DNA of 64,000 nt from NCBI RefSeq assembly GCF_006439025.1, contig NZ_RCYZ01000001.1, positions 124,001 to 188,000 of the forward strand. Reading direction: 5' to 3'. Positions within the stretch are counted from its first letter, which is position 1, and each line of letters begins with the position of its first letter. The translations under genes and the position numbers were made by a program. Source of the DNA: Hymenobacter nivis (lineage in GTDB: Bacteria > Bacteroidota > Bacteroidia > Cytophagales > Hymenobacteraceae). Positions 24,048 to 38,342 of the stretch are shown in pieces. Below the pieces are notes generated by a model. The model was not told where the DNA came from. It made no database searches and saw only the letters and a program-made list of their open reading frames with translations.

Positions 24048-25379
24048 TTGCGCGAATTGTCTACTGCCCCACCCGTCTTCTCCGCGCCGCGTTCCGGATT
24101 GCAGCGCTGGCAGCTGCGCACGGGCCTGAGCCTGTTCGTGGGTTACAGCGCTTACTATGTGTGCCGCTCCAACCTGGCCATCGCCGCGCCGCTGCTCATC
24201 CGCGAGTTTGGGCCCCAGGGCCTGAATAAGGAGGTATTGGGCCAGGTGGCCTCGGTGGGCGTGCTGTTTTATGCCGCGGGTAAGGTGCTCAACGGCGTGC
24301 TGGGCGACTTCCTGGGGGGCAAAAAGATTTTCCTGCTGGGCATGGTGGGGGCCGTGGCGGCCACCGTGGCCTTCGGGCTGGGGCAGGGCGTGGCGGTGTT
24401 TTTTGCGGCTTGGGCCGCCAACCGGCTGGTGCAGTCCATGGGCTGGGCCGGCCTGGTAAAAACCACGGCCAACTGGTTCTCCTACCAGTCCTACGGCCGC
24501 GTAATGGGCCTGCTCAGCCTGAGCTACCTGTTTGGCGACGTGGCGGCCAAGCTGGTGCTGGGGCAGCTGCTGGTGCTGGGCCTGGGCTGGCGGGGCCTGT
24601 TCCTGGCGGCGGCGGGCGTGCTGGCGGTGGTGGCCCTGGGCTGCTCCTTCAGCCTGAAAAGCAGCCCCGAAGACGTGGGCCTGGCCGCCCCGCCCGCCAA
24701 CCCGGACAACATATTCGCCACCGACGCCAGCCCCGCGGCCGACCGGCCGGCGTCGCTGGGCAGCTTGCTGGGGCCCTACTTCCGCAGCCCCGCCTTCCTG
24801 CTGATGCTGCTCATGTCGTTCGGCCTCACGGCGTTGCGCGAGGCGTTCAGCTTTTGGGTGCCCACCTACCTGGTGGAGGCCGCGCACCTGTCCGAGGGCG
24901 CGGCTTCGCAGTGGAGCGCACTGTACTCGGTGTGCGGCATGGCCTCCATCCTGGGCGCCGGCTACCTCTCCGACGCCTGGCTGCGGGGGCAGCGCGGGGT
25001 GCTCATCCTGGGGGCCTGCGTGGGCCTGGTGCCCGTGCTGGCCCTGATGACGCAGCCGGCCAGCGGCCCTGCCCTGCCGCTGGTGCTCACCGCGTTGGTG
25101 GGCCTGCTGCTGCTAGGGCCCTACTCGTTTTTGTCGGGGGCCATGGCCCTCGATGCCGGCGGGCGGCAGGGCGCGGCCACCGCGGCGGGCCTACTCGACG
25201 CCGTGGGTTACGCGGGCGGCACCGGGGCCCTGTGGCTCACCGGGGCCCTGGCCGAGCGGCGGGGCTGGGAGGCGGCCTGGGTGGCGCTGGCCGCATTGGC
25301 GGCGGCCACGGCGGTGGCGGCGCTGGTGTTCTACCGCACCCAGGAGCGGCGGCCGGCCCTCGTGCCCACGGTGGCGTAG
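24048..25379 (+). CDS. MFS transporter of the organophosphate/phosphate antiporter (GlpT-like) family
   Basis: Inner-membrane carrier of 443 residues with about twelve membrane segments. The N-terminal signature (FVGYSAYYVCRSNLAIAAPL) and GAGYLSDAWLRGQRGVLIL in the second half match GlpT/UhpT/PgtP-type carriers that exchange organophosphates for phosphate. No ATG is available in frame near the N-terminus; a TTG at 24048 is the most likely start, with a second TTG three codons later. It precedes phnZ and is preceded by a perfect palindrome. In this setting the substrate is probably a small organophosphonate such as 2-aminoethylphosphonate; this is inferred from the neighbours. Confidence 0.9.
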   Translation: MRELSTAPPVFSAPRSGLQRWQLRTGLSLFVGYSAYYVCRSNLAIAAPLLIREFGPQGLNKEVLGQVASVGVLFYAAGKVLNGVLGDFLGGKKIFLLGMVGAVAATVAFGLGQGVAVFFAAWAANRLVQSMGWAGLVKTTANWFSYQSYGRVMGLLSLSYLFGDVAAKLVLGQLLVLGLGWRGLFLAAAGVLAVVALGCSFSLKSSPEDVGLAAPPANPDNIFATDASPAADRPASLGSLLGPYFRSPAFLLMLLMSFGLTALREAFSFWVPTYLVEAAHLSEGAASQWSALYSVCGMASILGAGYLSDAWLRGQRGVLILGACVGLVPVLALMTQPASGPALPLVLTALVGLLLLGPYSFLSGAMALDAGGRQGAATAAGLLDAVGYAGGTGALWLTGALAERRGWEAAWVALAALAAATAVAALVFYRTQERRPALVPTVA

Positions 25380-25413
25380 CGCGGTCCCGGCTGTTTACTC
25401 ATATGAAAGGTTA

Positions 25414-25442
25414 GGTCATCATTAGTTAACGATTTGATGACC
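25414..25442. promoter_or_regulatory. Candidate operator palindrome upstream of phnZ
   Basis: Inverted repeat with 8-base arms, GGTCATCA and TGATGACC, around a centre containing GTTAAC. The inner segment ATTAGTTAACGATTTG (25421-25436) matches ATTAGTTAACAATTGG upstream of the FAD oxidoreductase at 14 of 16 positions. A second shared element, CTGTTTACTCATATG at 25391-25405, lies just before it and matches the site upstream of the PhnX-like gene at 14 of 15 positions. Confidence 0.6.
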
Positions 25443-25634
25443 ATCCGGCGACCTACCGCCAACGGGCAAACTGGACCTTTGCAATAATATATTGGATTCG
25501 GGCCGCCAGCGCGGCTTGCCCCGCGCCAGCCCAGGCACCACGCCCAGCACGGGGCCCCCGAAATAAGCACGCAGACCAGCCGGCCCGAGGTCGCCGGCTC
25601 CTTCCCAGGCTCGCTCATCCCCAACCCCGGCCGC

Positions 25635-26225
25635 ATGACGCCTTCTCCTACCCCAACCACCCCCCAGGCCACCGTGGAGGCTCTTTTTGCGCTGTACGAA
25701 GCCCACGGCCACGACGATTACATCGGCGAGCCGGTGTCGCAGCTCGAGCACATGTGGCAGGCCGCGGCGCTGGCCGCGGCCGAGGGCCACGAGGACGAGG
25801 TGGTGCTGGCCGCCTTCTTCCACGACCTGGGCCACCTGTGCGCCCCCGACGAAGGCGCCGGCTCGATGGACGGCTTCGGGGCCGTGGACCACGAGCGGCT
25901 GGGGGCCGACTACCTGCGGGCCCGGGGCTTCTCCAAGCGCCTGGCCGCGCTGGTTGAGAGCCACGTGCTGGCCAAGCGCTACCTCACCCACAAGCACCCC
26001 GACTACCTGCGCCGCCTCTCGCCCGCCAGCCGGGCCACGCTGGCCTTCCAAGGGGGCCCAATGAGCGCTGCCGAGGCCGCCACCTTCGAGCAAAACCCCG
26101 ACGCTGCCCTCATCCTGCGCCTGCGGGAGTGGGACGACCGGGCCAAGGAAGAACACCAACCCGTTGGCTCCCTCGACCACCTCAAGCGCATGGCCCTGCG
26201 GCACTTGCTGCGCCAGCCCCGGTAG
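25635..26225 (+). CDS. phnZ: PhnZ-type HD-domain mixed-valent diiron oxygenase
   Basis: A 196-residue cytoplasmic HD-domain protein. It carries the residues that define PhnZ, which cleaves the C-P bond of 2-amino-1-hydroxyethylphosphonate to glycine and phosphate: Tyr29 and Glu32 of the lid (DDYIGEPVSQLEH), and likely iron ligands His39, His63-Asp64 (FFHDLGHL), His86, His110 (VESHVLAKRY) and Asp167 (LREWDD). The spacing is offset by five to six from the characterised enzyme. PhnY, its usual hydroxylase partner, is not seen in the window. It is the first gene of a run that continues into SusC/SusD, and is preceded by two candidate regulatory sites. Confidence 0.9.
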   Translation: MTPSPTPTTPQATVEALFALYEAHGHDDYIGEPVSQLEHMWQAAALAAAEGHEDEVVLAAFFHDLGHLCAPDEGAGSMDGFGAVDHERLGADYLRARGFSKRLAALVESHVLAKRYLTHKHPDYLRRLSPASRATLAFQGGPMSAAEAATFEQNPDAALILRLREWDDRAKEEHQPVGSLDHLKRMALRHLLRQPR

Positions 26226-26273
26226 CCCGGCGCGGGCCTTTTTCTGACTTTCTCTATCCCCTACCCCTTTCGT

Positions 26274-29200
26274 ATGCGAAGCTTTTACAGAATGTTTCAG
26301 GTGCTGCTGCTGGTCTCTGGGCTGGGGCTAGCGCCGCAACTGCTGCGGGCGCAGGGCCCCGGCACCCCCGTGAGCGGCGTGGTGAGCGACGACCACAAGC
26401 AGCCCCTGCCCGGCGTGAGCGTCGTCATCAAGGGCACCAACAAGGGCACGACGACCGACAGCGACGGGCGCTTTGTGCTCAACGCCAGCCCCGGCGACGT
26501 GCTGGCCATCAGCTCGCTGGGCACCGTGGGGCAGGAGCTGCCGGTGGGCAGCCAAAAGACCTTCGCCGTGGCGCTGGCCACCGACAACAAGGCCCTTGAC
26601 GAGGTGGTGGTGACCGCCCTGGGCGTGAAAAAGGACGCTCGTAAAATCGGGTACGCCGTGCAGGAACTCAACGGCGAGGACGTGACGCGGGCCCGCGACC
26701 CCAACCCGATTTCGGGCCTCACGGGCAAAATCGCCGGCCTGTCGGTGGGGCCCTCGGCCGAGCTGCTGCGGGCGCCCAACGTGCTGCTGCGCGGCAACAA
26801 CGTGTCGCTGTACGTGGTGGATGGCTTCCCCATCGACACCGATACCTGGAACATCAGCCCCGACGACATTGAGACGTACACCGTGCTGAAGGGCCCCGCC
26901 GCCGCCGCCCTCTACGGCAACCGCGCCTCGAACGGCGCCATCCTAATTACCACCAAGAAGGGCAACAAGAACAAGAAAGGCTTCACGGTGGAGCTCAACA
27001 GCAGCAACGTGATTCAGAGCGGCTTCCTGGCCTTTCCGCGCTTGCAAGACTCGTACGGGGCCGGCGAAAACACCTTCTACACCTTCGTGGACGGCAAGGG
27101 CGGGGCCCCCGGCGGCGTCGATGGCGACTACGACGTGTGGGGCCCCTACTTCGCGGGCCAGCTCATTCCGCAGTACGACTCGCCCATTGTGAACGGGGTG
27201 CGCCAGGGCACGCCCTACGTAGCGCGCGGCGCCAACAACCTCCAGAACTTCCTGCGCACGGGCTTCCAAACCAACAACAACGTGGCCCTGAGCGCCAACG
27301 GCGACAACTACACCACGCGCTTCTCGGTGTCGCAGCAGAAGCAGAACAGCTACATCCCCAACAACGGGCTGAACATCATCAACTTCAACCTCTACGGCTC
27401 CTTCAACCCCAGCCCGCGCTTCAAGATTGAGGCCAACGTGAACTTCAACCGGCAGTTCACCGACAACTTTCCCGACGTGGACTACGGCCCCAACAGCCTG
27501 ATTTACAGCTCTGCGGTGTGGACCGGGGCCGACTGGGACGTGAACGCGCCCGACATCCGGGGCATTTGGCAGCCGGGCCAGGTGGGCATCCAGTCGGTGT
27601 TTGCCGAGTACCAGCGCTACCACAACCCCTGGCTGATGGTGGAGAAGTGGACCCGCGGCCACTACAAGAACGACACCTACGCCTACCTCACCGGCAACTA
27701 CAAAATCGACAACCACTTGAACGCCACCCTGCGCACCCAAATCAGCACCTACAACCTGCTGCGCACCGAGAAGATGCCGTTCTCAGCCCACCCCTACGGC
27801 CGCGAGGGCAACTTGGGCGACTACCGCGAAGACCGCCGCAACCTGTTCGACAACAACGCCGAGGGCTTCCTGAACTTCAACTACGACCTCGGGGCCAGCA
27901 AGTTCTTTAATGTGAGCGGCTTGGTGGGCGGCAACGTCCGCAACATGACCTACAACTCGAACTGGACCTCGACCGACTACCTGAACGTGCCCGAGGTGTA
28001 CGCCTTCAGCAACTCGCTGAACCCGGTGCAGTCCACGAGCTTCAACTCGCAGATGCGGGTGCTGAGCGCCTACTACTCGCTCGACGTTTCGCTGGGCAAG
28101 TTTGCCACCCTCTCCACCACGGGCCGCGTCGATCGGTCGTCGGCCTTCCAAACGCCCACCACTTACTACTACCCCAGCCTGTCGGTGGCTTCGGTGCTGA
28201 CTGACTACCTCCCGATTCCGGCCGCCATTTCCTTCCTGAAAGTGCGGGGCTCCTACGCCAACATCCGCACCGACGCCACTTCGCCCACCATCGGGCCGGC
28301 GCCGTTCAACTCCATCACGGCCCTAGGCGGCAGCACCGGCAACTCGCTCTTCACCAACCCGCTGGGCTACGGCAACACGTATACTTCGCCCTACAACGGG
28401 CCCGACTACTCGCTGCAATCGAACTTCTCGACCAGCAAGCCCTACAACAATCAGTCGGCCGGCTACGGCACCAACAACCTGTTTGCGCCCGGCCTGAAAA
28501 CGAGCACCCGCGTGAACTACGAGGAAGGCCTCGACGTCAAATTCCTGCAAAACCGCTTGGGCGTGAGCGCCACCGCCTTCCAGTACATCGACGGGCCCCA
28601 GATTTTGCCCAACCCGCTCTCGTCGGCCACCGGCTACACCACCGAGTACATCAACGCCCTGAAAACCAAGAAAACGGGCTACGAGCTGAGCCTGACCGGC
28701 ACGCCGGTGCAAAACGCCAACGGCTTCGGCTGGGACGTGCTCGTGAACTGGAGCACCTACAAGCAAGTGTACAGCGAGCTGCCCGCCGGCCAGAGCGCCT
28801 ACCAAACCTTCTTCAAGGCCGGCGACCGCACCGACAAGTTCTACGGCACGGCCTTCGTGCGGACGCCCGACGGGCAGGTGATCAACGACGCGGCCGGCAA
28901 GCCCCTCACCAACCCCGTGGCGCAGTACCTGGGCAACCTGAACAGCGACTACAACTGGAGCATCTACAACAAGTTCCACTACAAGTCGCTGAGCCTGGGC
29001 GTGCAGTTTGACGGGCAAGTGGGCGGCGTGACCACCGACTACATGTTCAACAAAACCATGCGCGGCGGCCGCAACGCCCTCACCGCCGAGGGGGCCCTGG
29101 GCGACGCCCGCTACCAGGACTGGCAGAACTACGGCAAGGCCGGCTACGCGGGCTCCTACGTGGGCGAGGGCGTGCAGATTGCCAACGGCGCCAGCATCAA

Positions 29201-29567
29201 CTACGACTCGCAGACGGGCGCCATCCTCAACGCCGAGGGCTTGCAGTACGCGGCCAACACCACCAAGGCCTTCGTGCAGGACTACGTGAGCAAGTACTAC
29301 AACGTGCAGGAATCCAACCTGATGAGCAAAACCTTCGGCAAGCTGCGCGAAGTCACCGTGAGCTACGACCTGCCCCGGGCCCTGCTCGGCAACGGCTTCA
29401 TCCAGAAGGTGTCGGTATCGGTGATTGGCCGCAACCTGCTGTATTTCTACGGCGACAAGCGCTTCAAGGACGTGGACCTGGACCAGTACAACGGCGCCAT
29501 CTCGGTCACGGGCCTGCAGTCGCCCACGGTGCGCAGCTACGGCCTCAACCTGAACGCTACTTTCTAA
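26274..29567 (+). CDS. SusC-like TonB-dependent outer-membrane receptor
   Basis: Outer-membrane import channel of 1097 residues that works with the SusD-like lipoprotein encoded next. It has a signal peptide (MRSFYRMFQVLLLVSGLGLA), a carboxypeptidase-regulatory-like domain at about 36-110 (GVVSDDHKQPLPGVSVVIKG), a plug domain from about 118 (DEVVVTALGVKKDARKIGYA; YVVDGFPIDTDTWNISPDDI; YGNRASNGAILITTKKG) and a long barrel ending in SYGLNLNATF. It starts 48 bases after phnZ. SusC/SusD pairs mostly import glycans or peptides; here the location inside a phosphonate locus suggests phosphonate-bearing polymers or lipids as cargo, which is inference. Confidence 0.96.
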   Translation: MRSFYRMFQVLLLVSGLGLAPQLLRAQGPGTPVSGVVSDDHKQPLPGVSVVIKGTNKGTTTDSDGRFVLNASPGDVLAISSLGTVGQELPVGSQKTFAVALATDNKALDEVVVTALGVKKDARKIGYAVQELNGEDVTRARDPNPISGLTGKIAGLSVGPSAELLRAPNVLLRGNNVSLYVVDGFPIDTDTWNISPDDIETYTVLKGPAAAALYGNRASNGAILITTKKGNKNKKGFTVELNSSNVIQSGFLAFPRLQDSYGAGENTFYTFVDGKGGAPGGVDGDYDVWGPYFAGQLIPQYDSPIVNGVRQGTPYVARGANNLQNFLRTGFQTNNNVALSANGDNYTTRFSVSQQKQNSYIPNNGLNIINFNLYGSFNPSPRFKIEANVNFNRQFTDNFPDVDYGPNSLIYSSAVWTGADWDVNAPDIRGIWQPGQVGIQSVFAEYQRYHNPWLMVEKWTRGHYKNDTYAYLTGNYKIDNHLNATLRTQISTYNLLRTEKMPFSAHPYGREGNLGDYREDRRNLFDNNAEGFLNFNYDLGASKFFNVSGLVGGNVRNMTYNSNWTSTDYLNVPEVYAFSNSLNPVQSTSFNSQMRVLSAYYSLDVSLGKFATLSTTGRVDRSSAFQTPTTYYYPSLSVASVLTDYLPIPAAISFLKVRGSYANIRTDATSPTIGPAPFNSITALGGSTGNSLFTNPLGYGNTYTSPYNGPDYSLQSNFSTSKPYNNQSAGYGTNNLFAPGLKTSTRVNYEEGLDVKFLQNRLGVSATAFQYIDGPQILPNPLSSATGYTTEYINALKTKKTGYELSLTGTPVQNANGFGWDVLVNWSTYKQVYSELPAGQSAYQTFFKAGDRTDKFYGTAFVRTPDGQVINDAAGKPLTNPVAQYLGNLNSDYNWSIYNKFHYKSLSLGVQFDGQVGGVTTDYMFNKTMRGGRNALTAEGALGDARYQDWQNYGKAGYAGSYVGEGVQIANGASINYDSQTGAILNAEGLQYAANTTKAFVQDYVSKYYNVQESNLMSKTFGKLREVTVSYDLPRALLGNGFIQKVSVSVIGRNLLYFYGDKRFKDVDLDQYNGAISVTGLQSPTVRSYGLNLNATF

Positions 29568-29587
29568 CTGCTACCGCCTCTACCAAG

Positions 29588-31171
29588 ATGAAAAATATCT
29601 TCAAAACCGGCGGGCTGCTCGTGGGCCTGGCCCTGGCCACCACGGGCTGCAACAAGACGCTGGACGAACTGACCCTCAACGAGAACAAGCCCAACAGCGT
29701 GCCGGCCTCGCTGCTCTTCAACGGCGTCCTCAACGACGCCTACGAGGCCCCCAACGGCAGCTACGAAACCTGGGACCAGTACTACCTCAACAACTACGAC
29801 TACTACGGCAACAACCGCTATGACTTCGGCAGCGGCACCAGCTACTACACCACCCTCAAAAACGTGGGCCTGATGGAGCAGCAGGCGCTGGCCGCCGGCT
29901 CGCCCGCCGTGAACCCCTACGCGGCCATCGGCAATTTCTTCCGGGCCTACCTGTTCACCCGCATGAGCCTGCAAATGGGCGACTTGCCGCAGTCGCAGGC
30001 CCTGCAGGGGCTGGAGGCCCTCACGCCGGTGTACGACCCCCAGAAAGCCATTTTTGTGCAGTCGTTTAAGTGGCTGGAGAGCGCCAACGCCGACCTGACG
30101 ACGCTCATCGCCAGCGGCTCGGCGGGCTTGGCCAACGACATTTACTTCAACGGCAACCTGAAGCAGTGGCAGAAGGTGGTGAACACGCTGCGCGTGCGCC
30201 TGCTGCTGGAACTGAGCAAGAAGAACGGCGACGCCGACCTCAACATTGCCGGGCAGTTTGCGGCCATCGTGGGCAACCCCACCAAGTACCCGCTCATGGC
30301 CAGCGCCGCCGACAACATGCAGTACACCTACGTGGCGGCCACCAACAACTTCTACCCCAACAACAACCGCAACTTCGGCCAGGACGGCTCGCGCAAGAAC
30401 ATGTCGGCCACCTACGTGGGCCTGCTCACCCAACTGCAGGACCCGCGCGTGTACGCCACCTGCGAGCCGGCCCGCGACCTAGTGGACAACAAGAAGCAAA
30501 ACCCCACCAGCTTCGCGTCGTTCGTGGGCGCCGACGCTGGCCTCGACTTGGGCGTGATGTACGTGAACGCCGGCCTGCAGCAGTACTCGCTCCTGAACCG
30601 CAAGCGCTACTTCTCCACCCTCACCGGCGAGCCGACCATCCAAATTGGCTACCCCGAGCTGTGCTTCAACATCGCCGAGGGCATCAACCGCGGCTGGCTA
30701 AGCAGCGGCAGCGCCGAGACCTACTACACGGCGGGCATCCAGGCCTCAATGGCCTTCTACGGCCTGCCCGCCAGCGGCACCTACACTGCCTCGTTCTACC
30801 GCCCCGGCTCGACGGACGTGACCGCCGCGGCGAACTACGACACATACAATATTCCCGTCAGCTTCGCCGCGTACTATGCCCAGCCCAGCGTGAAGTACAC
30901 CGCTGGGGCCCCCGGCCTGACCCAGATTTTGCAGCAGAAGTACTTGGCCCTATTCCGCCACTCGGGCCTGGAGGCCTACTACAACTACCGCCGCACCGGC
31001 GTGCCCACCTTCACCACGGGCCCCGGCACCGGCAACGGCGGCCGCATCGCCCAGCGCTTCCAGTACCCCACCTCCGAGCGCACCGCCAACACCGCCAACT
31101 ACCAAGCCGCGCTGGCCAGCCAATACGGCGGCAACGACGATATTAACGGCGTGACGTACGTGCTGAAATAA
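29588..31171 (+). CDS. SusD-like surface lipoprotein (SusD_like_2 type)
   Basis: Surface substrate-binding lipoprotein of 527 residues that caps the SusC channel. The lipobox is at the start (LALATTGCNKTLDEL) and is followed by NENKPNSVPASLLFNGVLND, the entry signature of the SusD/RagB group, and by AIGNFFRAYLFTRMSLQMGD, which matches the tetratricopeptide-like core. The C-terminal part includes LFRHSGLEAYYNYRRTGVP, also common in this group. It starts 20 bases after susC and clearly belongs to the same transcript. The ligand is not predictable. Confidence 0.94.
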   Translation: MKNIFKTGGLLVGLALATTGCNKTLDELTLNENKPNSVPASLLFNGVLNDAYEAPNGSYETWDQYYLNNYDYYGNNRYDFGSGTSYYTTLKNVGLMEQQALAAGSPAVNPYAAIGNFFRAYLFTRMSLQMGDLPQSQALQGLEALTPVYDPQKAIFVQSFKWLESANADLTTLIASGSAGLANDIYFNGNLKQWQKVVNTLRVRLLLELSKKNGDADLNIAGQFAAIVGNPTKYPLMASAADNMQYTYVAATNNFYPNNNRNFGQDGSRKNMSATYVGLLTQLQDPRVYATCEPARDLVDNKKQNPTSFASFVGADAGLDLGVMYVNAGLQQYSLLNRKRYFSTLTGEPTIQIGYPELCFNIAEGINRGWLSSGSAETYYTAGIQASMAFYGLPASGTYTASFYRPGSTDVTAAANYDTYNIPVSFAAYYAQPSVKYTAGAPGLTQILQQKYLALFRHSGLEAYYNYRRTGVPTFTTGPGTGNGGRIAQRFQYPTSERTANTANYQAALASQYGGNDDINGVTYVLK

Positions 31172-31174
31172 CCC

Positions 31175-31285
31175 GTAGCGCAGACTGTAGCGCGGACTTT
31201 GTAGTCCGCGTCGCTCGCTTCGTCCTACCGACAATCGGGCAGCGACTGGGCAGCGACGCAGGCTCGTAGAGTCCGCGCTATAGCG
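31175..31285. repeat. Inverted repeat, GTAGCGCGGACTTTGTAGTCCGCG family, copy 3
   Basis: Repeat between the susD-like gene and the first alkaline-phosphatase-family gene. The left arm contains TGTAGCGCGGACTTTGTAGT; the right arm is degenerate (CGTAGAGTCCGCGCTATAGC). The middle carries GCTTCGTCCTACCGACAATC, matching the other copies in inverse or direct form. Confidence 0.8.
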
Positions 31286-31325
31286 CACTACGGCCGGCTT
31301 ATCCTTTTCCATTGCCCTTATAGCT

Positions 31326-32552
31326 ATGTTCCCCACCCGCCCCATTCTGCTCACCGCCCTGGCCGCCGGCCTTGCCCTGGGGGCCCGCGCCCAATCGCCC
31401 AAGCTGCGCACCGAAAACGTCATCCTCGTCACCCTCGACGGCATGCGCTGGCAGGAGGTGTTCGGCGGGGCCGACACGGCGCTGTTCCGCCAAACCAAGC
31501 ACTACTACGCCGACCGCGGGGCCCTGCAAAAGGACTTCGGCCAGGCCGCGCCCGAGCAGCGCCGCGCCGCGCTCATGCCCTTTTTGTGGGGCACCGTGGC
31601 CAAGCAGGGCCAGCTCTACGGCAACCGCCCCGCCGGCAGCCTGGTGAACGTGACCAACACCATGCGCTTCTCGTACCCCGGCTACAACGAAATCCTGACC
31701 GGGGCCCCCGACGACGCCCGCGTCCACAGCAACGACCCGCTCGACAACCCCAACCAGTCGGTGCTGGAAGTGCTGAACCAGCAGCCCGCGTTCAAGGGCA
31801 AGGTGGCGGCCTTCGGCTCGTGGGAAGCCTTTCCGTACATCTTGAACGAGAAGCGCAGCGGCCTGCCCGTTAACGCCGGCCAGCGCCTGGCCACCGGTGC
31901 CAACCTCACGCCCGGCGAGCAGCTGCTCAATCAGTTGGAGGTGGCTTCGCCCAGCCCGTTTGGCGAGGAGCGGCTCGACGCCTTCACCTACGGCTACGCC
32001 CTGGAATACCTGAAAAAGAACAAGCCCCGCGTGCTCTTCGTGAGCTTCGGCGACACCGACGACTGGGCCCACGGCGGCGAGTACGGCGCGTACCTGCACG
32101 CCGCCCAATACACCGACGGCCTCATCCGCCAGCTGTGGGAAGCCTTGCAAGCCGACCCGCAGTACCGCGGCAAAACCACGCTGCTCCTCACCACCGACCA
32201 CGGCCGGGGCGCCACCGGCAAGGGCTGGGAAACCCACGGCAAAGACGTAGCCGGCGCCGACCAAATTTGGATGGCTGCCCTGGGCCCCGACACGCCCGCC
32301 CTGGGCATGGCCACCACCGGCCAGCTCTACCAAAACCAGGTGGCCGCCACCCTGGCCCAGCTGCTGGGCCAGCCCTACGCCCCCACGCCCGCCACCGGCA
32401 AGCCCATCGAGGCCGTGCTGGGCCGCAAGGCGCCGGGCAAAAAGCTGGGCCTTCGCCCCGGGGCCCCATTGCCGGCCGCGCCCCGCGCATTGCCCACCGG
32501 CCACACCGCCGCCCCCAGCTGGCGCAGCGAGGAAGGCGCCACCGGCGAGTAA
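31326..32552 (+). CDS. Secreted alkaline-phosphatase-superfamily hydrolase 1
   Basis: A 408-residue exported protein (signal peptide MFPTRPILLTALAAGLALGA) of the alkaline phosphatase / nucleotide pyrophosphatase fold. Metal-site residues include Asp38 in VTLDGMRW, the Asp and His of FGDTDDWAHGG, the Asp-His of LLTTDHGRG and His in WETHGKD; the nucleophile is probably Ser116 in RFSYPGYNEILTG, the place usually held by Thr. The C-terminal 35 residues are low-complexity. It sits directly after SusC/SusD, so it probably cleaves phosphoesters or phosphonate esters of imported or surface-bound substrates. The specificity is unknown; phosphonoacetate hydrolase is a formal alternative. Confidence 0.88.
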   Translation: MFPTRPILLTALAAGLALGARAQSPKLRTENVILVTLDGMRWQEVFGGADTALFRQTKHYYADRGALQKDFGQAAPEQRRAALMPFLWGTVAKQGQLYGNRPAGSLVNVTNTMRFSYPGYNEILTGAPDDARVHSNDPLDNPNQSVLEVLNQQPAFKGKVAAFGSWEAFPYILNEKRSGLPVNAGQRLATGANLTPGEQLLNQLEVASPSPFGEERLDAFTYGYALEYLKKNKPRVLFVSFGDTDDWAHGGEYGAYLHAAQYTDGLIRQLWEALQADPQYRGKTTLLLTTDHGRGATGKGWETHGKDVAGADQIWMAALGPDTPALGMATTGQLYQNQVAATLAQLLGQPYAPTPATGKPIEAVLGRKAPGKKLGLRPGAPLPAAPRALPTGHTAAPSWRSEEGATGE

Positions 32553-32618
32553 TTCCCGCCCCGGGGGCCCCGGTGGGCCCCACTACGTCCTGCTTTTTTG
32601 CTCTTTTTTTCGCGCCGC

Positions 32619-33884
32619 ATGAAAAACTTTTGCCTGTTGCTGCTCGGCCTGCTGGGGCCCCACGGGGCCCCGGCGCAAGCACCCGTCCGCAAGGTGGTGT
32701 TCGTCATCGCCGACGGCATTCCGGCCGACGTGCTGGAGGGCGCACCGGCCCCGAACATCAAAAAACTGATTGCGGGCGGCACCTACCTGCGGGCCCACGT
32801 GGGCGGCGAGGTGGGCACCTACACCCAGACGCCCACCATCTCGGCGCCCGGCTACAACGACCTGCTCACCGGCACCTGGGGCTACAAGCACAACGTGTGG
32901 GACAACGCCATCAAGGCCCCCAACTACCACTACCCCACCGTCTTCCGCCTGGTGAAGGAGGCGCAGCCGGCCCGCAAAATCGCCATCTTCTCGACTTGGC
33001 TCGACAACCGCACCAAGCTCGTGGGCGAGGGCCTGCCCGCCGCCGGCAACCTGCGCTTCGACTATAAAGCCGATGGTTATGAATTAGACACGGTGGCGTT
33101 TCCGCACGACAAGGCCAGCCGCTACACCCACGCCATCGACGACCGGGTGGTGGCCGACGCCGCCCAGTGCCTGCGCGCCCAGGGCCCCGACCTCTCGTGG
33201 GTGTACCTAGAGCACACCGACGACATGGGCCACCGCCACGGCGACAGCGACGAGTTGCGCGCCGCCGTGGGCTACCTCGACGCGGAAATCGGCCAGCTCC
33301 AGGCCGCCCTCGCCTACCGCCGCCAGCACTTCCGCGAAGATTGGCTGCTGGTGCTCACCACCGACCACGGCCGCGACGCCGCCACCGGCCGCAACCACGG
33401 CGGGCAGTCCGTGCGCGAGCGCACCACCTGGCTGGCCCTCAGCGCAAAAGACGTGAATTCCTACGCCCGCCAGCAGCCGGTGGCCATCGTGGATATTCTG
33501 CCCACCATCGCCCGGTTCATGCAGGTGCCGCTGCCGGTGGCCGCCCAGCGCGAGCTCGACGGTGTGCCGCTGCTGGGGCCCGTGTCGGTGGCCGCGCCGC
33601 GGGTGCAGGCCGCGCCCGGCGACAGCCTGCGCATCAGCTGGACGGCCCTGGGGGCCCCGGCGGAACCCCTGAAGGTGTGGGCCACGGCCACCAACCGCGC
33701 CAAAACGGGCGGCGCCGACGACTACGTGCTGCTCGGCACCGTGCCGCTGGGCCGGCAGCGCCTGGCCGTCGGCCGCGCCGCCTACCCGGCCGCCTTCTAC
33801 AAAATCGTGCTCGAAGGGGCCCACAACACCGCCAATGCCTGGTTGATGCCACCCGGCCCGCCCGCCCCCGGCGGCACCGATTAA
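32619..33884 (+). CDS. Secreted alkaline-phosphatase-superfamily hydrolase 2
   Basis: A 421-residue exported protein from the ATG at 32619 ([20 protein letters not shown]). It shares the fold with the enzyme upstream but is only distantly similar. Metal-site residues include Asp32 (VIADGIPAD), the Asp and His of [13 protein letters not shown], the Asp-His of LTTDHGRD and His in RNHGGQSV; Ser75 in [13 protein letters not shown] is the probable nucleophile. After about residue 320 a beta-sandwich-like domain follows ([20 protein letters not shown]). It is probably a periplasmic phosphodiesterase or phosphonate monoester hydrolase. Two such enzymes in tandem suggest different ester substrates. 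Confidence 0.87.
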
Positions 33885-33943
33885 GGAGCTATCCACACAG
33901 GATTTTATCAATCTGAACGGTGGTTTGTTGTCCTAAACAGGGG

Positions 33944-34050
33944 TTTGTCATGCCCATCTGGCATCCCGAAGGAAGCATCTTATCAGGTTAGAGCAGGTCG
34001 TTTAGCAGTGCTAAGATGCTTCCTTCGGGACGCCAGATGGGCATGACAAA
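33944..34050. repeat. Inverted repeat, TGTCATGC/GAAGGAAGCATCTT family, copy 2
   Basis: Near-perfect inverted repeat with arms of about 39 bases (left 33944-33982, TTTGTCATGCCCATCTGGCA then TCCCGAAGGAAGCATCTTA). It lies between the second hydrolase gene and the convergent PhnX-like gene, so it may also act as a two-way terminator. It shares its inner end GAAGGAAGCATCTT with the copy at 7979. Confidence 0.85.
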
Positions 34051-34069
34051 TCTTATTCAAACAGGGCCC

Positions 34070-34807
34070 CTAAGCCGGCACCAACTCGGCCAGCAGGTGC
34101 TGGTGCAGCTCGGCGAGCGAGGCAAATAGGCCATCGTTAGGGCAGGCGGCCAGCTGCGCGTGGGTGTGGGTGCCGTTGACGACGCCCAGGCTGCGGGCGC
34201 ACCCGGCGCGCCGGCCCGATTCGAGGTCCGACGGTGTATCGCCCACGTTGTACACGCGTTGCGGGTCGGTGATGCCGAATGCCTGCATGGCTTTTTGGAT
34301 CATGAGCGGCGCGGGGCGGCCCTCGGCCACCTCGTCGCTGGCGATGGACAAGCCAATGAGCGAGTGGGCGTTGCCGCGGTGCTGGGCGTCCAGGCCCGCG
34401 TCCCAGCCCAGGCGGTGCAAAATCAGGTCCGTCACGGTGCGGTAGAAGCCCGTGGTGAGGGCGATGCGGACGCCCTGGCCCTTGAGAAACGCCAGCAGCT
34501 CCAAGCAGCCCGCCGTGGGCACTACCTCGGCCGTGCGGTAGTGGTCCTCCAAAATGCGGCGGAACGCCCCGTACGATTTGTCGACCAGGGCCCCCAGCTC
34601 GGCTGCGGGGGCCCCGGGGCCCAACTGCTCGCGCCACAAGGTTTCGAACACGAAGCGCTTGGCCTGGCCCTGCGCGGCCAAGATGCGGGCGGCGGTGGCC
34701 CGCAAGCCGGTGGCGGCGGCGGCCTGCGCGAAGCAGGCTTCCACCTCGTGCTGGTCGCGGACGGTGGTGCCGGCCATGTCGAATACTACGAGCTGCAAAG
34801 GAGCCAT
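34070..34807 (-). CDS. PhnX-like phosphonatase-type HAD hydrolase
   Basis: A 245-residue cytoplasmic HAD hydrolase. The first motif is VVFDMAGTTV: nucleophile Asp10 and, two places on, Ala12 instead of the acid found in ordinary HAD phosphatases, as in phosphonoacetaldehyde hydrolase (PhnX). A Lys equivalent to the Schiff-base Lys of PhnX is present at 50 (AAQGQAKRF). Later motifs are LTTGFY and YNVGDTPSDLESG. It matches the phosphonatase-like group that recurs in phosphonate operons and should split a C-P bond in phosphonoacetaldehyde or a near relative. It is divergent from the XRE-cupin regulator gene. Confidence 0.88.
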   Translation of the reverse strand: MAPLQLVVFDMAGTTVRDQHEVEACFAQAAAATGLRATAARILAAQGQAKRFVFETLWREQLGPGAPAAELGALVDKSYGAFRRILEDHYRTAEVVPTAGCLELLAFLKGQGVRIALTTGFYRTVTDLILHRLGWDAGLDAQHRGNAHSLIGLSIASDEVAEGRPAPLMIQKAMQAFGITDPQRVYNVGDTPSDLESGRRAGCARSLGVVNGTHTHAQLAACPNDGLFASLAELHQHLLAELVPA

Positions 34808-34821
34808 CGGGAGGGGATTTA

Positions 34822-34847
34822 CTGTTTACTAATATGCAACAAATATA
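34822..34847 (-). promoter_or_regulatory. Promoter and candidate operator of the PhnX-like gene
   Basis: On the minus strand TATATTTG (34847 down to 34840) fits the Bacteroidota -7 box TAnnTTTG. Four bases downstream lies the motif which on the plus strand reads CTGTTTACTAATATG (34822-34836), almost identical to 25391-25405 upstream of phnZ. A protein bound there would cover the transcription start, so repression is the natural reading. Confidence 0.6.
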
Positions 34848-34891
34848 CGGCCCTGAGCCGGCCCCGTGCTTCGCCATCGTCACGTTTGGGT

Positions 34892-34899
34892 TACGTTTG
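34892..34899 (+). promoter_or_regulatory. -7 box of the XRE-cupin regulator gene
   Basis: TACGTTTG fits TAnnTTTG and lies 19 bases before the regulator start codon. The same octamer is found at 35580 before the FAD oxidoreductase gene. Confidence 0.5.
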
Positions 34900-34918
34900 C
34901 CGTTTCTAGTTATTCCGC

Positions 34919-35494
34919 ATGAAGCACGATAAGCTGAGTTTGATTGGCGTCCGCATCTTGGAGCTGCGCAAGGCCAAAAAGCTGAGCCTGCGCGAGCTGG
35001 CCAAGCGCAGCGGCCTGTCGGCGGGCCTGCTCTCCAAGATTGAGAACTTCCGCACCGTGCCCTCGCTGTCCGTACTGGTCGAAATCGCCACTTCGCTGGA
35101 AGTGGACGTGTCGGTGCTGGTGAAAAACATCACCGGCGAGGCCGCCGCCCCCTACCTGCTGGTGCGCGCCCACGAAGGCCGCCCCGAGCCGCGCGACGAT
35201 TCCAAGGGCCTGCTCTACAATTTTCTGCTCTCGCAGGACTTACTCAACTACAGCCTGCGCGTCAACGAGGTCATCATCAGCCCCCACACCTACCGCAAGC
35301 CCCTCTCCACCAACGCCCTGGAGCTGGTGTACGGGCTGGAAGGCACGGTGCGCTACGGCTTCAAGGACGAAGAAGTGGCCGTGGGGCCCGGCGACACGCT
35401 CTACTTCGACGGCATCGTGGCCCACTCCGTTCGCAACGACACCGAGCTGCCCGCTCGGCTGCTGAAGGTGTACCTGCTGCGCCATACCGACTAG
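34919..35494 (+). CDS. XRE-family regulator with cupin sensor domain
   Basis: DNA-binding regulator of 191 residues. A helix-turn-helix of the XRE/Cro type is at about 8-65 (IRILELRKAKKLSLRELAKR, SGLSAGLLSKIENFRTVPSL), followed by a cupin at about 120-188 (ALELVYGLEGTVRYGFKDEE, VGPGDTLYFDGIVAHSVRND). Proteins of this build usually repress or activate nearby catabolic genes in response to a small ligand bound in the cupin. It lies between the divergent PhnX-like gene and the FAD oxidoreductase, so it is the obvious local regulator of the phosphonate genes. Confidence 0.92.
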   Translation: MKHDKLSLIGVRILELRKAKKLSLRELAKRSGLSAGLLSKIENFRTVPSLSVLVEIATSLEVDVSVLVKNITGEAAAPYLLVRAHEGRPEPRDDSKGLLYNFLLSQDLLNYSLRVNEVIISPHTYRKPLSTNALELVYGLEGTVRYGFKDEEVAVGPGDTLYFDGIVAHSVRNDTELPARLLKVYLLRHTD

Positions 35495-35563
35495 GTTTTT
35501 TGGGGGAAGCCTAGAACGGGGGCCCCAGATATAACGCATTCTTAACCGCTGCAATAGTTTCCT

Positions 35564-35587
35564 ATTAGTTAACAATTGGTACGTTTG
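35564..35587 (+). promoter_or_regulatory. Promoter and candidate operator of the FAD oxidoreductase gene
   Basis: ATTAGTTAACAATTGG (35564-35579) is followed at once by TACGTTTG (35580-35587), a TAnnTTTG -7 box. The first element matches the core of the palindrome before phnZ at 14 of 16 bases, so both genes may answer to the same regulator. Confidence 0.6.
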
Positions 35588-35615
35588 CGTCGGCAACACC
35601 ATTAACCGGCGCAGC

Positions 35616-36770
35616 ATGGAAAATTCGTATGATTTGATCGTCGTGGGCGCGGGGGCCCTAGGCGCCTTCCACACCTACTTCGCGCTGGAGCGCGGCCTGA
35701 AGGTGCTGCTGTTGGAGAAAGACGCCCGCCCGATGGAGGCCACCGTGCGCAATTTCGGGCAGATCATCACCTCGGGCATGGCCGAGGGCGCGTGGTTCGA
35801 CTACGCCCGCGCGAGCCTCGCCACGTACCAGAAAATTCAGGCCGAGTACGACATTTCCATCCGCCAAAACGGCTCACTCTACCTGGCCTCGACGCCACTC
35901 GAAATGCAGGTGCTGGAGGAAAAGCACGCGCGCTACCAGGCCATCGGCTATGCCTCGCGGGTGCTCACGGCGGCGCAGTGCCGGCAGCGGCTGCCCGCCG
36001 TGCAGGCCAGCTACTGCGTGGGCGGCCTGCTGTTTGAGCAGGAAGTGACCGCCGAGCCCGACCAAATGATCCACCGCCTGCTGGCCTACCTCGGGGCCCG
36101 CTACCGGCTCGACTACCGCCCCGCCACCCCCGTGCGCGAGGTGACGGCCGGCGACGCGGGCGCCACCGTCATCGACGCGCGCGGCCAGCGCTACACGGCC
36201 GCCCAGGTGCTGGTGTGCAGCGGCCGCGACGTGCAGCTGCTGTTCCCCGACGTGTTCGCGCAGAGCGACTTGGAGCTGGTGAAGCTGCAGATGCTGGCCA
36301 CCTACCCCCTGCCGCAGGTGCGGCTGCCGGGCTCGGTGCTCACGGGCTTGAGCCTGCGGCGCTACGCGGCGTTCAAGGCGTGCCCGTCGTTTGCCCAGCT
36401 CCAGGCCGAGGCCATGGACCCCGACCTACGCGCGTGGGGCATCCACATCTTGTTCAAGCAGGCCGTGGACGGCTCCATCATCATCGGCGACACCCACGAG
36501 TACGCCGACCTGCCCCAGGCCGCCGACCTGGACTTCAACAACGCCGATTCCCTCAACCAGCTCATGCTGGCCGCGGCCCGCCGCATCGTGGACCTGCCCG
36601 ACTGGCGCATCCAGCGCGCCTGGAACGGCTACTACACCCAGAGCAAGTCGGCCGAGGTGTTCCAGCACTCACCCGACCCGCGCATTCACCTCGTCACGGG
36701 CATCGGGGGCAAGGGCATGACGAGCGCCGGCGGCTTTGCCCAGCACCACGTGGCGCAGCTGCTGGGCTAG
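35616..36770 (+). CDS. FAD-dependent amine oxidoreductase of the phosphonate-associated type (PbfD/TIGR03364-like)
   Basis: A 384-residue cytoplasmic flavoenzyme of the D-amino-acid/glycine oxidase group. The FAD-binding Rossmann motif is VVGAGALGAFHTYFALERGL at about 7-28; other family stretches are EATVRNFGQIITSGMAEGAW, HILFKQAVDGSIIIGDTHEY and the C-terminal GIGGKGMTSAGGFAQHH. The NFGQI and DGSIIIGDTHEY segments fit the TIGR03364 group found in phosphonate operons, members of which have been shown to oxidise 2-aminoethylphosphonate or its N-methyl form to phosphonoacetaldehyde. That product is the substrate of PhnX, encoded just upstream. Substrate assignment is by analogy. Confidence 0.87.
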   Translation: MENSYDLIVVGAGALGAFHTYFALERGLKVLLLEKDARPMEATVRNFGQIITSGMAEGAWFDYARASLATYQKIQAEYDISIRQNGSLYLASTPLEMQVLEEKHARYQAIGYASRVLTAAQCRQRLPAVQASYCVGGLLFEQEVTAEPDQMIHRLLAYLGARYRLDYRPATPVREVTAGDAGATVIDARGQRYTAAQVLVCSGRDVQLLFPDVFAQSDLELVKLQMLATYPLPQVRLPGSVLTGLSLRRYAAFKACPSFAQLQAEAMDPDLRAWGIHILFKQAVDGSIIIGDTHEYADLPQAADLDFNNADSLNQLMLAAARRIVDLPDWRIQRAWNGYYTQSKSAEVFQHSPDPRIHLVTGIGGKGMTSAGGFAQHHVAQLLG

Positions 36771-36846: not shown

Positions 36847-38199
36847 ATGCCCACCGGTACGCTGCTAATTATCGACGACGAGGCCCGCCTGCGGCAGCTC
36901 CTGGCGCGGGTGCTCGAACTGGAAGGCTACGCCGTGCTCCAGGCCCCCGACGCGGCCCGCGGCTTTGAGCTGCTGCGTGACCACGCGGCCGAGGTGCTCG
37001 TCATCCTCTCCGACGTGAAGCTGCCCGACGCCCACGGCGTAGACCTGCTGCCCCGCTTCCGGGCCGCCGCGCCCGACGCCGAAGTGGTGCTGCTCACCGC
37101 CTTCGGCACCATCGCCGACGGCGTGCGGGCCATGAAGCAGGGCGCGTTCGACTACCTCACGAAGGGCGATTTCGAGCAGCAACTCGTGGTGGTAGTGGAG
37201 CGCGCGGCCGACAAGGCGCGCCTGCGCCAGCGCCTGGCCGCCCTGGAACGCCGCGTGGGCCAGCGCGCCAATTTTGACGCTATGATTGGCACCTCGCCCG
37301 CCCTGCGCCGGGCCCAGGACTTGGCCCGCCAAGTGGCGCCCACCGACAGCACCGTGCTGCTGGAGGGCCCCACCGGCGCGGGCAAGGAGCTGTTTGCCCA
37401 GGCGCTGCACGAGGCCAGCGGGCGCCGGCAGAAGGCGTTTGTGGCCGTCAACTGCAGCGCCTTCCCGCGCGACTTGCTGGAGTCGGAGCTGTTTGGCTAC
37501 AAAAAAGGCGCCTTCACGGGGGCCCTGGGCGACAAGAAGGGCCTGCTGGAAGAAGCCAACGGCGGCACGCTGTTCCTGGACGAAATTGGCGAGCTGGAGC
37601 TGAACGTGCAAGCCAAGTTCCTGCGGGTGTTGGAGTTGCAGCAGTTCACCAAGCTCGGCGACACCAAGCCCACGCAGGTGAACGTGCGGTTGGTGGCCGC
37701 CACCAACCGCAACCTCAAGCAGGAAGCGGCCGACGGCAACTTCCGGCTCGACTTGTACTACCGGCTCTCGGTGTTCACCATCGTGGTGCCGCCGCTCAGC
37801 GCCCGCACGGCCGACGTGCCGTTGCTGGCCGAGTACTTTTTGCAGCACTTCGCCGCCCGCCTCGCCAAGCGCCTGCCCGGCTTCGAGCCCGACGCCCTGC
37901 GCCTGCTGCAAGCCTACGCCTGGCCCGGCAACGTGCGCGAACTGAAGAACGTGTTGGAGCGCGCCGCCATTCTGGCCCCCGCCGGCCAGCCCCTGGCGCC
38001 CGACTACTTGCCCGACGAGTTCCACGCCCGCGCCGGGGCCCCACCAGCCGGCGGCGACAGCCTGCGCGCCCTCGAAGCCCAGCATATCGGCCGCCTCATG
38101 CGCGAGCGCGCCGGCGACAAGCCCGACGTGGCCAAGCGCCTGGGCATCGGCCTGACGACCTTGTACCGCAAATTGCAGGAATATGGCCTGGAGCAGTAG
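36847..38199 (+). CDS. NtrC-family sigma-54-dependent response regulator
   Basis: A 450-residue transcription activator. The receiver domain has the acidic pair (IDDEARLR), phospho-acceptor Asp56 (ILSDVKLPD), Thr in LLTAFG and Lys in YLTKGDF. The AAA+ domain has Walker A GPTGAGKE (about 173-180), the sigma-54 contact loop GAFTGA, and Walker B GGTLFLDEIGE. The C-terminal Fis-type helix-turn-helix ends in GLTTLYRKLQEYG. It opens a pair with the kinase encoded at 38343, separated by a hairpin repeat. Its target promoters are not obvious in the window; in related genomes such pairs occur near various transport operons. Confidence 0.94.
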   Translation: MPTGTLLIIDDEARLRQLLARVLELEGYAVLQAPDAARGFELLRDHAAEVLVILSDVKLPDAHGVDLLPRFRAAAPDAEVVLLTAFGTIADGVRAMKQGAFDYLTKGDFEQQLVVVVERAADKARLRQRLAALERRVGQRANFDAMIGTSPALRRAQDLARQVAPTDSTVLLEGPTGAGKELFAQALHEASGRRQKAFVAVNCSAFPRDLLESELFGYKKGAFTGALGDKKGLLEEANGGTLFLDEIGELELNVQAKFLRVLELQQFTKLGDTKPTQVNVRLVAATNRNLKQEAADGNFRLDLYYRLSVFTIVVPPLSARTADVPLLAEYFLQHFAARLAKRLPGFEPDALRLLQAYAWPGNVRELKNVLERAAILAPAGQPLAPDYLPDEFHARAGAPPAGGDSLRALEAQHIGRLMRERAGDKPDVAKRLGIGLTTLYRKLQEYGLEQ

Positions 38200-38204
38200 C
38201 GCGC

Positions 38205-38303
38205 TGTAGCGCGGACTTTGTAGTCCGCGGCTCTTGCTTCGTCCTGCCGATAATCAGGCAGCGACCGGGAAGCGTCGCGGACTAAAAAGGCCGCGCTACA
38301 GCG
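38205..38303. repeat. Inverted repeat, GTAGCGCGGACTTTGTAGTCCGCG family, copy 4
   Basis: About 98-base palindrome between the sigma-54 regulator and its kinase. The left arm starts TGTAGCGCGGACTTTGTAGT, the right arm ends GGCCGCGCTACAG, and the middle has GCTTCGTCCTGCCGATAATC, which is nearly the reverse complement of the middle of copy 2. Confidence 0.85.
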
Positions 38304-38342
38304 CCAGCAACCTTACCAAACCTGCCCAAGCCACTGCTACCC

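Follow-up and report, generated by a model that had tools for sequence, protein, structure and literature searches.

The window analyzed here is a 64,000-nucleotide stretch of the Hymenobacter nivis genome (contig NZ_RCYZ01000001.1, positions 124,001 to 188,000). Reading frames and family scans place nine genes at positions 24048 to 36770, encoding a carrier, an HD oxygenase, a SusC/SusD pair (SusCD), two hydrolases of the alkaline phosphatase (AP) superfamily (AP1 and AP2), a PhnX-like hydrolase, an XRE-cupin protein, and an FAD-dependent oxidoreductase. We consider these genes as a candidate locus for the use of the aminophosphonate 2-aminoethylphosphonate (AEP), its N-methyl form (N-methyl-AEP), or 1-hydroxy-AEP (R-HAEP). 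All genes listed in an earlier note on this DNA were found in place by reading frames and family matches, and the features are as follows.

24048 to 25379, + strand: major facilitator superfamily (MFS) carrier of the GlpT/PgtP organophosphate:Pi antiporter group (best solved match, GlpT), proposed to be an AepP-like inner-membrane aminophosphonate permease.
25392 to 25405, + strand: motif TGTTTACTCATATG, exact match, a candidate operator upstream of the HD-SusC-SusD genes.
25635 to 26225, + strand: PhnZ-type HD oxygenase (TIGR03276, PhnZ alignment), proposed to convert R-HAEP to glycine and phosphate.
26274 to 29567, + strand: SusC-like TonB-dependent outer-membrane transporter (TIGR04056 and TIGR04057, both over cut-off).
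29588 to 31171, + strand: SusD-like lipoprotein (PF12771) with a lipobox ending at Cys21, the marker of the locus in relatives.
31326 to 32552, + strand: AP1, secreted AP-superfamily hydrolase (PafA/NPP-like; family, alignment, model), candidate nucleophile Ser116.
32619 to 33884, + strand: AP2, secreted AP-superfamily hydrolase (NPP-like; PF01663, alignment, model), candidate nucleophile Ser82 (numbering from 32598).
34070 to 34807, - strand: PhnX-like (TIGR03351) HAD hydrolase (family and alignment), nucleophile Asp10, cap Lys50, proposed to be a phosphonoacetaldehyde hydrolase.
34823 to 34836, + strand: motif TGTTTACTAATATG, exact match, a candidate operator in the divergent PhnX/XRE intergenic region.
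34919 to 35494, + strand: XRE-cupin regulator (HTH_3 and Cupin_2), proposed local regulator of the locus.
35561 to 35574, - strand: copy of the motif with two mismatches (motif scan), between the XRE and FAD genes.
35616 to 36770, + strand: TIGR03364 (PbfD-type) FAD-dependent oxidoreductase (family score), proposed to convert AEP or N-methyl-AEP to phosphonoacetaldehyde.

A small correction concerns AP2, for which the codon at 32598 is TTG rather than ATG and the first in-frame ATG lies at 32619.

Judged by family scores, the firmest assignments in the locus are those of the FAD protein and SusC. The FAD protein reaches 389.2 bits with TIGR03364, over the cut-off of 285.1. PbfD1 is annotated as TIGR03364, and both PbfD1 and PbfD2 are described in the available part of PMC10590968 as oxidizing N-methyl-AEP or AEP to phosphonoacetaldehyde. 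The HD protein scores 212.8 bits with TIGR03276 (Phn-HD), 1.8 bits under the cut-off of 214.6, and the gene is likewise under that cut-off in 10 of the 17 phylum genomes that have it, H. nivis included. Its best match in the PDB is solved PhnZ (E = 3e-46); of the four solved proteins it matches, three are PhnZ sequences and the other is TmpB. Alignment to PhnZ (4mlm), with positions counted from the alignment, showed that Y24, E27, H34, H58, D59, H80, H104, and D161 of PhnZ are all retained; these residues we take to be the iron or metal ligands and the Tyr-Glu pair, in agreement with the earlier claim that all key residues are present. The PhnX-like protein has TIGR03351 as its best family (170.8 bits, below the cut-off of 218.9) and reaches 88.7 bits with the true PhnX family, TIGR01422, for which the cut-off is 220. 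Across 13 homologues its D10 and cap K50 do not vary, and they align (positions counted) with D12 and K53 of solved PhnX 2iof, presumably the nucleophilic Asp and the Schiff base Lys of the cap domain, as expected from the DxA motif and Lys reported earlier.

The H. nivis genome has no PhnW over cut-off, and PhnJ is absent, by which a carbon-phosphorus (C-P) lyase was rejected. None of the nine locus genes gave a PhyH match of the kind that a PhnY* dioxygenase beside PhnZ would show; three PhyH-family genes lie on other contigs, and a PhnY* might thus be encoded far from the locus. Neither AP1 nor AP2 matches TIGR02335 at an E value of 0.001, and the idea that one of them is the phosphonoacetate hydrolase PhnA was dropped; in two related loci, L194 and L266, a gene of its own encodes a PhnA that scores over cut-off.

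The carrier scores 163.9 bits with TIGR00881 (GlpT/PgtP group), below the cut-off of 407.75, and its closest solved match is GlpT 1pw4 (E = 6e-30). The arginines in the GlpT segments YYLVRKN and LLRYG, presumably the phosphate-binding R45 and R269 of GlpT, are conserved in the carrier. As a GlpT-group MFS protein with both arginines, it resembles AepP, AEP transport itself being proposed here. AepP is a GlpT-like AEP permease according to the portion of PMC8316502 available.

SusC exceeds the cut-offs of TIGR04056 (430.7 bits) and TIGR04057 (50.4 bits) and is followed by a SusD-family lipoprotein that matches PF12771 and PF12741 and carries a lipobox. AP1 and AP2 come directly after SusD, such that SusCD is co-localized with phosphatase/phosphodiesterase-type genes, as in the PusCD phosphate utilization systems of Flavobacterium. 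The two hydrolases gave weak family matches to Sulfatase and Phosphodiest (AP2 with PF01663, 66.5 bits), and the AP fold that had been assigned to both was borne out by structure prediction and fold search. The predicted models have a mean predicted local distance difference test score (pLDDT) of 86 for AP1 and 83 for AP2. The AP1 model is nearest to PafA 5tj3 (Z 30.4, root mean square deviation 3.2, 297 aligned; VIA-align), followed by NPP 7n1s (Z 26.8) and the phosphonate monoester hydrolase 2w8s (Z 25.6), while the AP2 model matches sulfatases and NPPs, with a phosphonate monoester hydrolase at rank 49. For neither protein did the fold searches single out one activity, since the matches range over sulfatases, NPPs, PafA, and phosphonate monoester hydrolases. 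In each protein, seven residues can be matched to the metal ligands and nucleophile typical of the AP superfamily; they are invariant among 25 AP1 and 14 AP2 homologues, except for AP1 His304, which is nearly invariant. By analogy, these residues would be candidate metal ligands and the nucleophile. Both N termini, read by eye, have an ordinary signal peptide in which the lipobox Cys is absent, and because of this plain signal peptide AP1 and AP2 are more likely periplasmic than extracellular. If so, import would precede hydrolysis. The earlier note proposed that secreted hydrolases free aminoethylphosphonate-type compounds from lipids or polymers captured by SusC/SusD, and any such release would then follow import.

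The locus is conserved within the family Hymenobacteraceae. TIGR03364 is over cut-off in 21 of 200 family genomes, H. nivis included, and a SusD of at least 49% identity occurs in exactly the same 21 genomes (79 to 100% in 19 of them, 49 to 50% in two). Among these SusD genes, one is split over two contigs and one by an in-frame stop; the latter (L083, genome G003) is possibly a recent loss or a sequencing error. The HD, SusC, SusD, PhnX, XRE, and FAD genes are all present in the stretches fetched from 20 of 20 relatives, and the MFS carrier in 19, the contig ending at that point in the remaining one (G190). AP1 is missing in L063, L065, and L075, where a YncE-type propeller-phosphoesterase gene occupies its position, and L080 has the YncE-type gene plus AP1. 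In the two most distant relatives, the HD gene lies on the far side of the locus and AP2 is absent (L082) or moved (L083). The genus also contains a SusCD paralogue (L086 to L090; SusD identity, 40 to 45%), with Y_phosphatase3, a TonB-like protein, and Phosphodiest (type I phosphodiesterase) as neighbors in L088 and a PF04185 phosphoesterase in L086.

Beyond the family, TIGR03364 was found in 32 of 394 other genomes of the phylum at an E value of 1e-60 or better, one of the 32 being below the curated cut-off. SusC and SusD lie near the FAD gene in 16 of the 32 fetched stretches, against 3.5 expected from SusC density (P = 1.4e-8, kinship ignored); the stretches span 10.7 to 20 kb, and the expectation, derived from SusC counts per genome, assumed 20 kb for all. 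Starting from SusD, 13 other phylum genomes have a protein of at least 45% identity, and 12 of these contain Phn-HD and 11 contain TIGR03364 (Fisher test, 9e-19 and 1e-11, respectively, kinship ignored). The exception with neither is G206, in which the locus (L193) comprises SusCD, AP1, an amino acid permease, and a GntP permease. The SusD matches listed include 19 places below 40%. Thirteen of these were fetched (L198 to L210) and show no C-P gene, three of them having AP1 or AP2; two further ones, in G517 and G489, stand in phosphonate loci (L128 and L136), and four others are outside the fetched set. A search for relatives of SusD in viral contigs confirmed none.

Named species genomes were scanned with a SusD profile, and the best 80 of at least 568 confirmed loci were analyzed, with C-P genes called by profiles built here. 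These 80 loci come from Hymenobacter, Mucilaginibacter, Pedobacter, Chitinophaga, Dyadobacter, Spirosoma, Telluribacter, Emticicia, Flavobacterium, and other genera. At least one C-P gene is present in 63 of the 80; among the 59 loci of at least 19 kb, 50 have at least one and 43 have at least two. The XRE-cupin gene, found in all 20 family relatives, occurs in 38 of the 80. Chance neighborhood of SusCD and C-P genes was rejected on the basis of the co-occurrence in family, phylum, and named genomes.

The strongest argument for a link between SusCD and phosphonates is that the partner genes are exchanged while the chemistry is unchanged. In L251, a one-strand run reads SusC-SusD-PbfA-DUF5690-PhnW-PhnX, with PbfA, PhnW, and true PhnX at 700, 462, and 351 bits against cut-offs of 525, 401, and 220. 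The one-strand run of L194 reads SusC-SusD-AP1-HD-PhnA-PhnY-PhnW-FAD-DUF5690, with PhnA at 496 (cut-off, 408), PhnY at 665 (636), and PhnW at 485 bits (401), and L266, cut by a contig end, reads SusD-PhnA-PhnY. PhnW is over cut-off in L252 and L254, where the TIGR03364-type gene is absent, and L138 has PbfA and lacks HD. Counting each distinct locus once, the 85 SusD loci with C-P genes comprise 74 with HD, two with PbfA (L138 and L251), none with both, and nine with neither. PbfA and PhnZ both act on R-HAEP and never stand in one cluster, as far as the accessible text of PMC8154272 reports. At the inner membrane, the GlpT-like carrier and DUF5690 are mutually exclusive. Among 98 distinct loci with C-P genes, again each counted once, DUF5690 is present in 70, a GlpT-like carrier in 18, both in none, and neither in 10, and DUF5690 thus takes the place of the GlpT-like carrier in SusCD-phosphonate loci. 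The DUF5690 profile had no match up to an E value of 1 among the sequences of solved structures.

The presence of C-P genes was also mapped on a tree of SusD. In a recount, 79 rows had C-P genes and 37 did not, and the two states are separated by 12 changes, versus a mean of 31.5 for shuffled states, with 0 of 500 shuffles as low. The tree was made with FastTree, which gave long-branch warnings, and it left out 25 loci (17 of family relatives and 8 of genomes already present), loci without a SusD of more than 430 amino acids, and loci under 10 kb without C-P genes.

A common DNA motif ties together the SusCD, PhnX, and FAD promoters. The sequence TGTTTACTNATATG occurs exactly upstream of HD-SusCD and between the PhnX and XRE genes, and a copy that differs at two positions lies between the XRE and FAD genes. 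At up to two mismatches, the 64 kb of the window contains these three sites and no others, versus 0.15 expected. The 5.4-Mb genome has two exact matches, both in the locus, and two more places with one mismatch, the reversed control pattern also giving two. In 16 of 20 family relatives, the motif precedes the XRE gene within two mismatches. A matrix was made from the PhnX/XRE sites of other genomes, picked for their likeness to the motif in the window, and used to scan 16 loci; 38 of the 48 next-best sites fell upstream of the MFS, HD(-SusCD), or FAD genes, as did 14 of the 16 best sites. To allow for an AT-rich motif among GC-rich genes, 200 column permutations served as the control, and for the next-best sites these gave a mean of 9.5 and a maximum of 26, with 0 of 200 reaching 38. 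A k-mer screen for shared promoter words found none. From the position of its gene, we infer that the XRE-cupin protein binds the motif.

Because SusCD co-occurs with the C-P genes, shares gene runs with them, persists while catabolic genes are swapped within the same chemistry, and is joined to them by a shared promoter motif, we regard SusCD as integral to a phosphonate utilization locus. This conclusion is well supported, with a probability of roughly 80%, and it sustains the central proposal of the earlier note, a phosphonate acquisition and catabolism locus built around SusC/SusD. From this gene set we infer the following scheme, including its substrates, the order of steps, where the hydrolases reside and what they do, and which way regulation works. 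SusD at the surface would bind, and SusC would import with energy from TonB, molecules bearing AEP, N-methyl-AEP, or R-HAEP. In the periplasm, AP1 and AP2 would cut the P-O ester that links the phosphonate to a sugar, lipid, or glycerol, and the GlpT/AepP-like carrier would move the free aminophosphonate over the inner membrane. There the PbfD-type FAD enzyme would yield phosphonoacetaldehyde, which the PhnX-like enzyme would split into acetaldehyde and phosphate, and a branch through the PhnZ-type oxygenase would convert R-HAEP to glycine and phosphate. The XRE-cupin protein may control the promoters via the shared motif TGTTtACtnATAtGcAAC. It is plausible that the imported ligands are conjugates and that the hydrolases are periplasmic phosphonoester hydrolases.

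Several observations weigh against this conclusion. AEP is small enough for porins, and SusCD is not obviously needed for it. The PhnX-like protein, the HD protein, and the carrier all score under the curated cut-offs. For the motif, the best site taken alone is less distinctive, the permuted matrices giving a mean of 3.4 and a maximum of 15, with one of 200 at 14 or more; moreover, the motif was first spotted by eye in printed intergenic sequences and tested afterwards, and its discovery was not blind. The other 16 of the 32 phylum FAD loci have no SusC-SusD pair in the fetched stretch. Five of these (L133, L135, L139, L142, and L152) have another TonB-dependent receptor, assigned by clustering and in one case checked with Pfam, which is perhaps a second outer-membrane solution; L133 also encodes nearby a large Phosphodiest protein in which Laminin_G_3 and DUF4983 domains occur. 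The other eleven lack both SusCD and another receptor, although in L140 a SusC-like gene extends past the edge of the stretch; among them, G297 and G387 carry SusCD together with HD on a different contig, and a SusD of 43% identity stands elsewhere in G450. Of the 80 SusD-anchored loci, 17 lack a C-P gene, nine of them being full length. Six of the nine (L258, L259, L264, L268, L272, and L273) form one SusD clade with local support of 100, and the five neighbor proteins scanned from L258, L259, L264, and L272 are all GDPD glycerophosphodiesterases. As a GDPD-linked SusCD clade nested among phosphonate-linked ones, it suggests a change of ligand from phosphonate to phosphodiester. The other three are L218, with AP1 and a YncE-type gene, L241, and L276. 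In addition, the same-genus SusCD paralogue (40 to 45%) adjoins phosphatase genes, and AP2 (53 to 55%) adjoins a distant SusCD in L092 to L094. L093 was rejected as a C-P locus, its PhnY candidate being a succinate-semialdehyde dehydrogenase that passed a loose threshold. Neighbors unrelated to phosphonates, which the earlier note had named as grounds for doubt, are found for SusCD and the hydrolases in a minority only, as GDPD or phosphatase genes and as AP2 beside a distant SusCD.

Such neighbors speak for a different view, in which SusCD and the AP-fold hydrolases scavenge organic phosphate in general, as phosphodiesters, in the manner of the Flavobacterium PUS loci, and the C-P enzymes merely belong to the same phosphorus regulon while SusCD carries no phosphonates. 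Related SusCD pairs that lack C-P genes have GDPD, Phosphodiest, Y_phosphatase3, and YncE-type phosphoesterase genes as neighbors, the folds of AP1 and AP2 match phosphatases and phosphodiesterases, and PusCD with phosphodiesterases and phosphomonoesterases has been reported (PMC8115612, in the part available). However, the SusCD clade keeps C-P genes while the whole catabolic pathway changes, the runs of L134 and L251 have no recognized AP1, AP2, or YncE-type gene among the part of the neighbors scanned, and the exact motif is confined to the locus in the H. nivis genome, unlike a genome-wide starvation regulon. We consider this view unlikely. SusCD pairs are mostly glycan systems, and a carbohydrate locus with a phosphonate side function, in which a glycan enters through SusCD and loses its aminophosphonate decorations to the phosphonate enzymes to make the sugar usable, would fit the glycan-type domains on two phosphodiesterase-type proteins in phosphonate loci of relatives (Laminin_G_3 in L133, CHB_HEX_C_1 and PA14 in L124). 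The locus and neighbor genes that were scanned, a set that leaves out many neighbors, include no glycoside hydrolase, polysaccharide lyase, or sugar kinase family, and we hold this explanation to be very improbable.

Phosphonate uptake by SusCD, as preferred here, may extend beyond the locus in H. nivis. The wider SusD clade resembles a family of importers for organophosphorus compounds, in which the majority of sampled members are tied to C-P catabolism and some to phosphodiesters. More tentatively, with chances that we put slightly short of even, a distinct SusCD lineage across the Bacteroidota, along with one or more other SusD lineages (L128, L129, L136, L141, L143, and L148), might import aminophosphonates in conjugated form, for instance phosphonoglycans of amoebae or bacteria and the head groups of phosphonolipids, and the phosphonate phosphorus of macromolecules would then enter before P-O cleavage. 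DUF5690 might in that case represent a family of phosphonate permeases not yet recognized as such, and the XRE-cupin protein might be a regulator that responds to phosphonates.

Two other features of the window appear to lie outside this system. At 36847 to 39812, after the FAD gene, lie genes for a sigma-54 response regulator and a histidine kinase; the response regulator was recognized in only one (L064) of the fetched stretches of the 20 relatives, and the pair is probably not part of the locus. The sole Rfam match of the window, 5_ureB_sRNA (76 bits; 6387 to 6681, - strand), is antisense within a reading frame (6234 to 7949) that resembles the urease alpha subunit, and because of this position it is probably conserved urease coding sequence rather than a real small RNA.

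The earlier note suggested that a SusCD-linked phosphonate system would be new, and this is only partly so. One sentence in the available text of PMC8115612 places Flavobacterium PusCD complexes beside phosphonate-degrading enzymes. In the literature searched, whose coverage leaves out most subscription papers and preprints, we found no fuller account linking SusD, SusC, or TonB to phosphonates and no mention of DUF5690. The Flavobacterium complexes are SusCD-like and stand beside phosphatases and phosphodiesterases, as in the locus described here. However, PusD1 and PusD2, the two proteins compared, belong to PF07980/PF14322, whereas the SusD of the locus belongs to PF12771, and the main text of that paper names no phn gene, the phosphonate link being that one sentence. 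The PbfD-PhnX clusters of PMC10590968, so far as its available text describes them, likewise combine a TIGR03364 FAD enzyme with a PhnX-type hydrolase, lack PhnW, and share the proposed route from AEP or N-methyl-AEP over phosphonoacetaldehyde to phosphate, but the terms SusC and Bacteroid- are absent from the main text. AepP, compared by its description in the accessible part of PMC8316502, is a GlpT-related MFS carrier of AEP co-localized with AEP catabolic genes and is also named from a Bacteroidetes species; TonB is absent from that main text. In the clusters of PMC8154272 (PhnWX and PhnWAY), PhnZ is present and no cluster combines it with PbfA, a separation also seen in our SusCD loci, whereas SusCD goes unmentioned in the available text of that survey, which covered PhnWX, PhnWAY, PhnY*Z, and PalAB clusters in complete genomes only.

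According to the available portions of the papers compared, AepXVW, AepP, and AepSTU are phosphonate carriers of the inner membrane that handle small molecules in solution. The combination of SusCD with C-P enzymes in many related bacteria points to a little-noticed way to obtain phosphorus. If the proposed function is correct, an outer-membrane step would be added to the phosphonate cycle, and the SusD clade would serve as a marker for such bacteria in soil and water. There would also be testable predictions for the ligands of PF12771 SusD proteins, for DUF5690, and for the XRE-cupin operator. For the Bacteroidota themselves, it would mean access to phosphonate bound in lipids and glycans.

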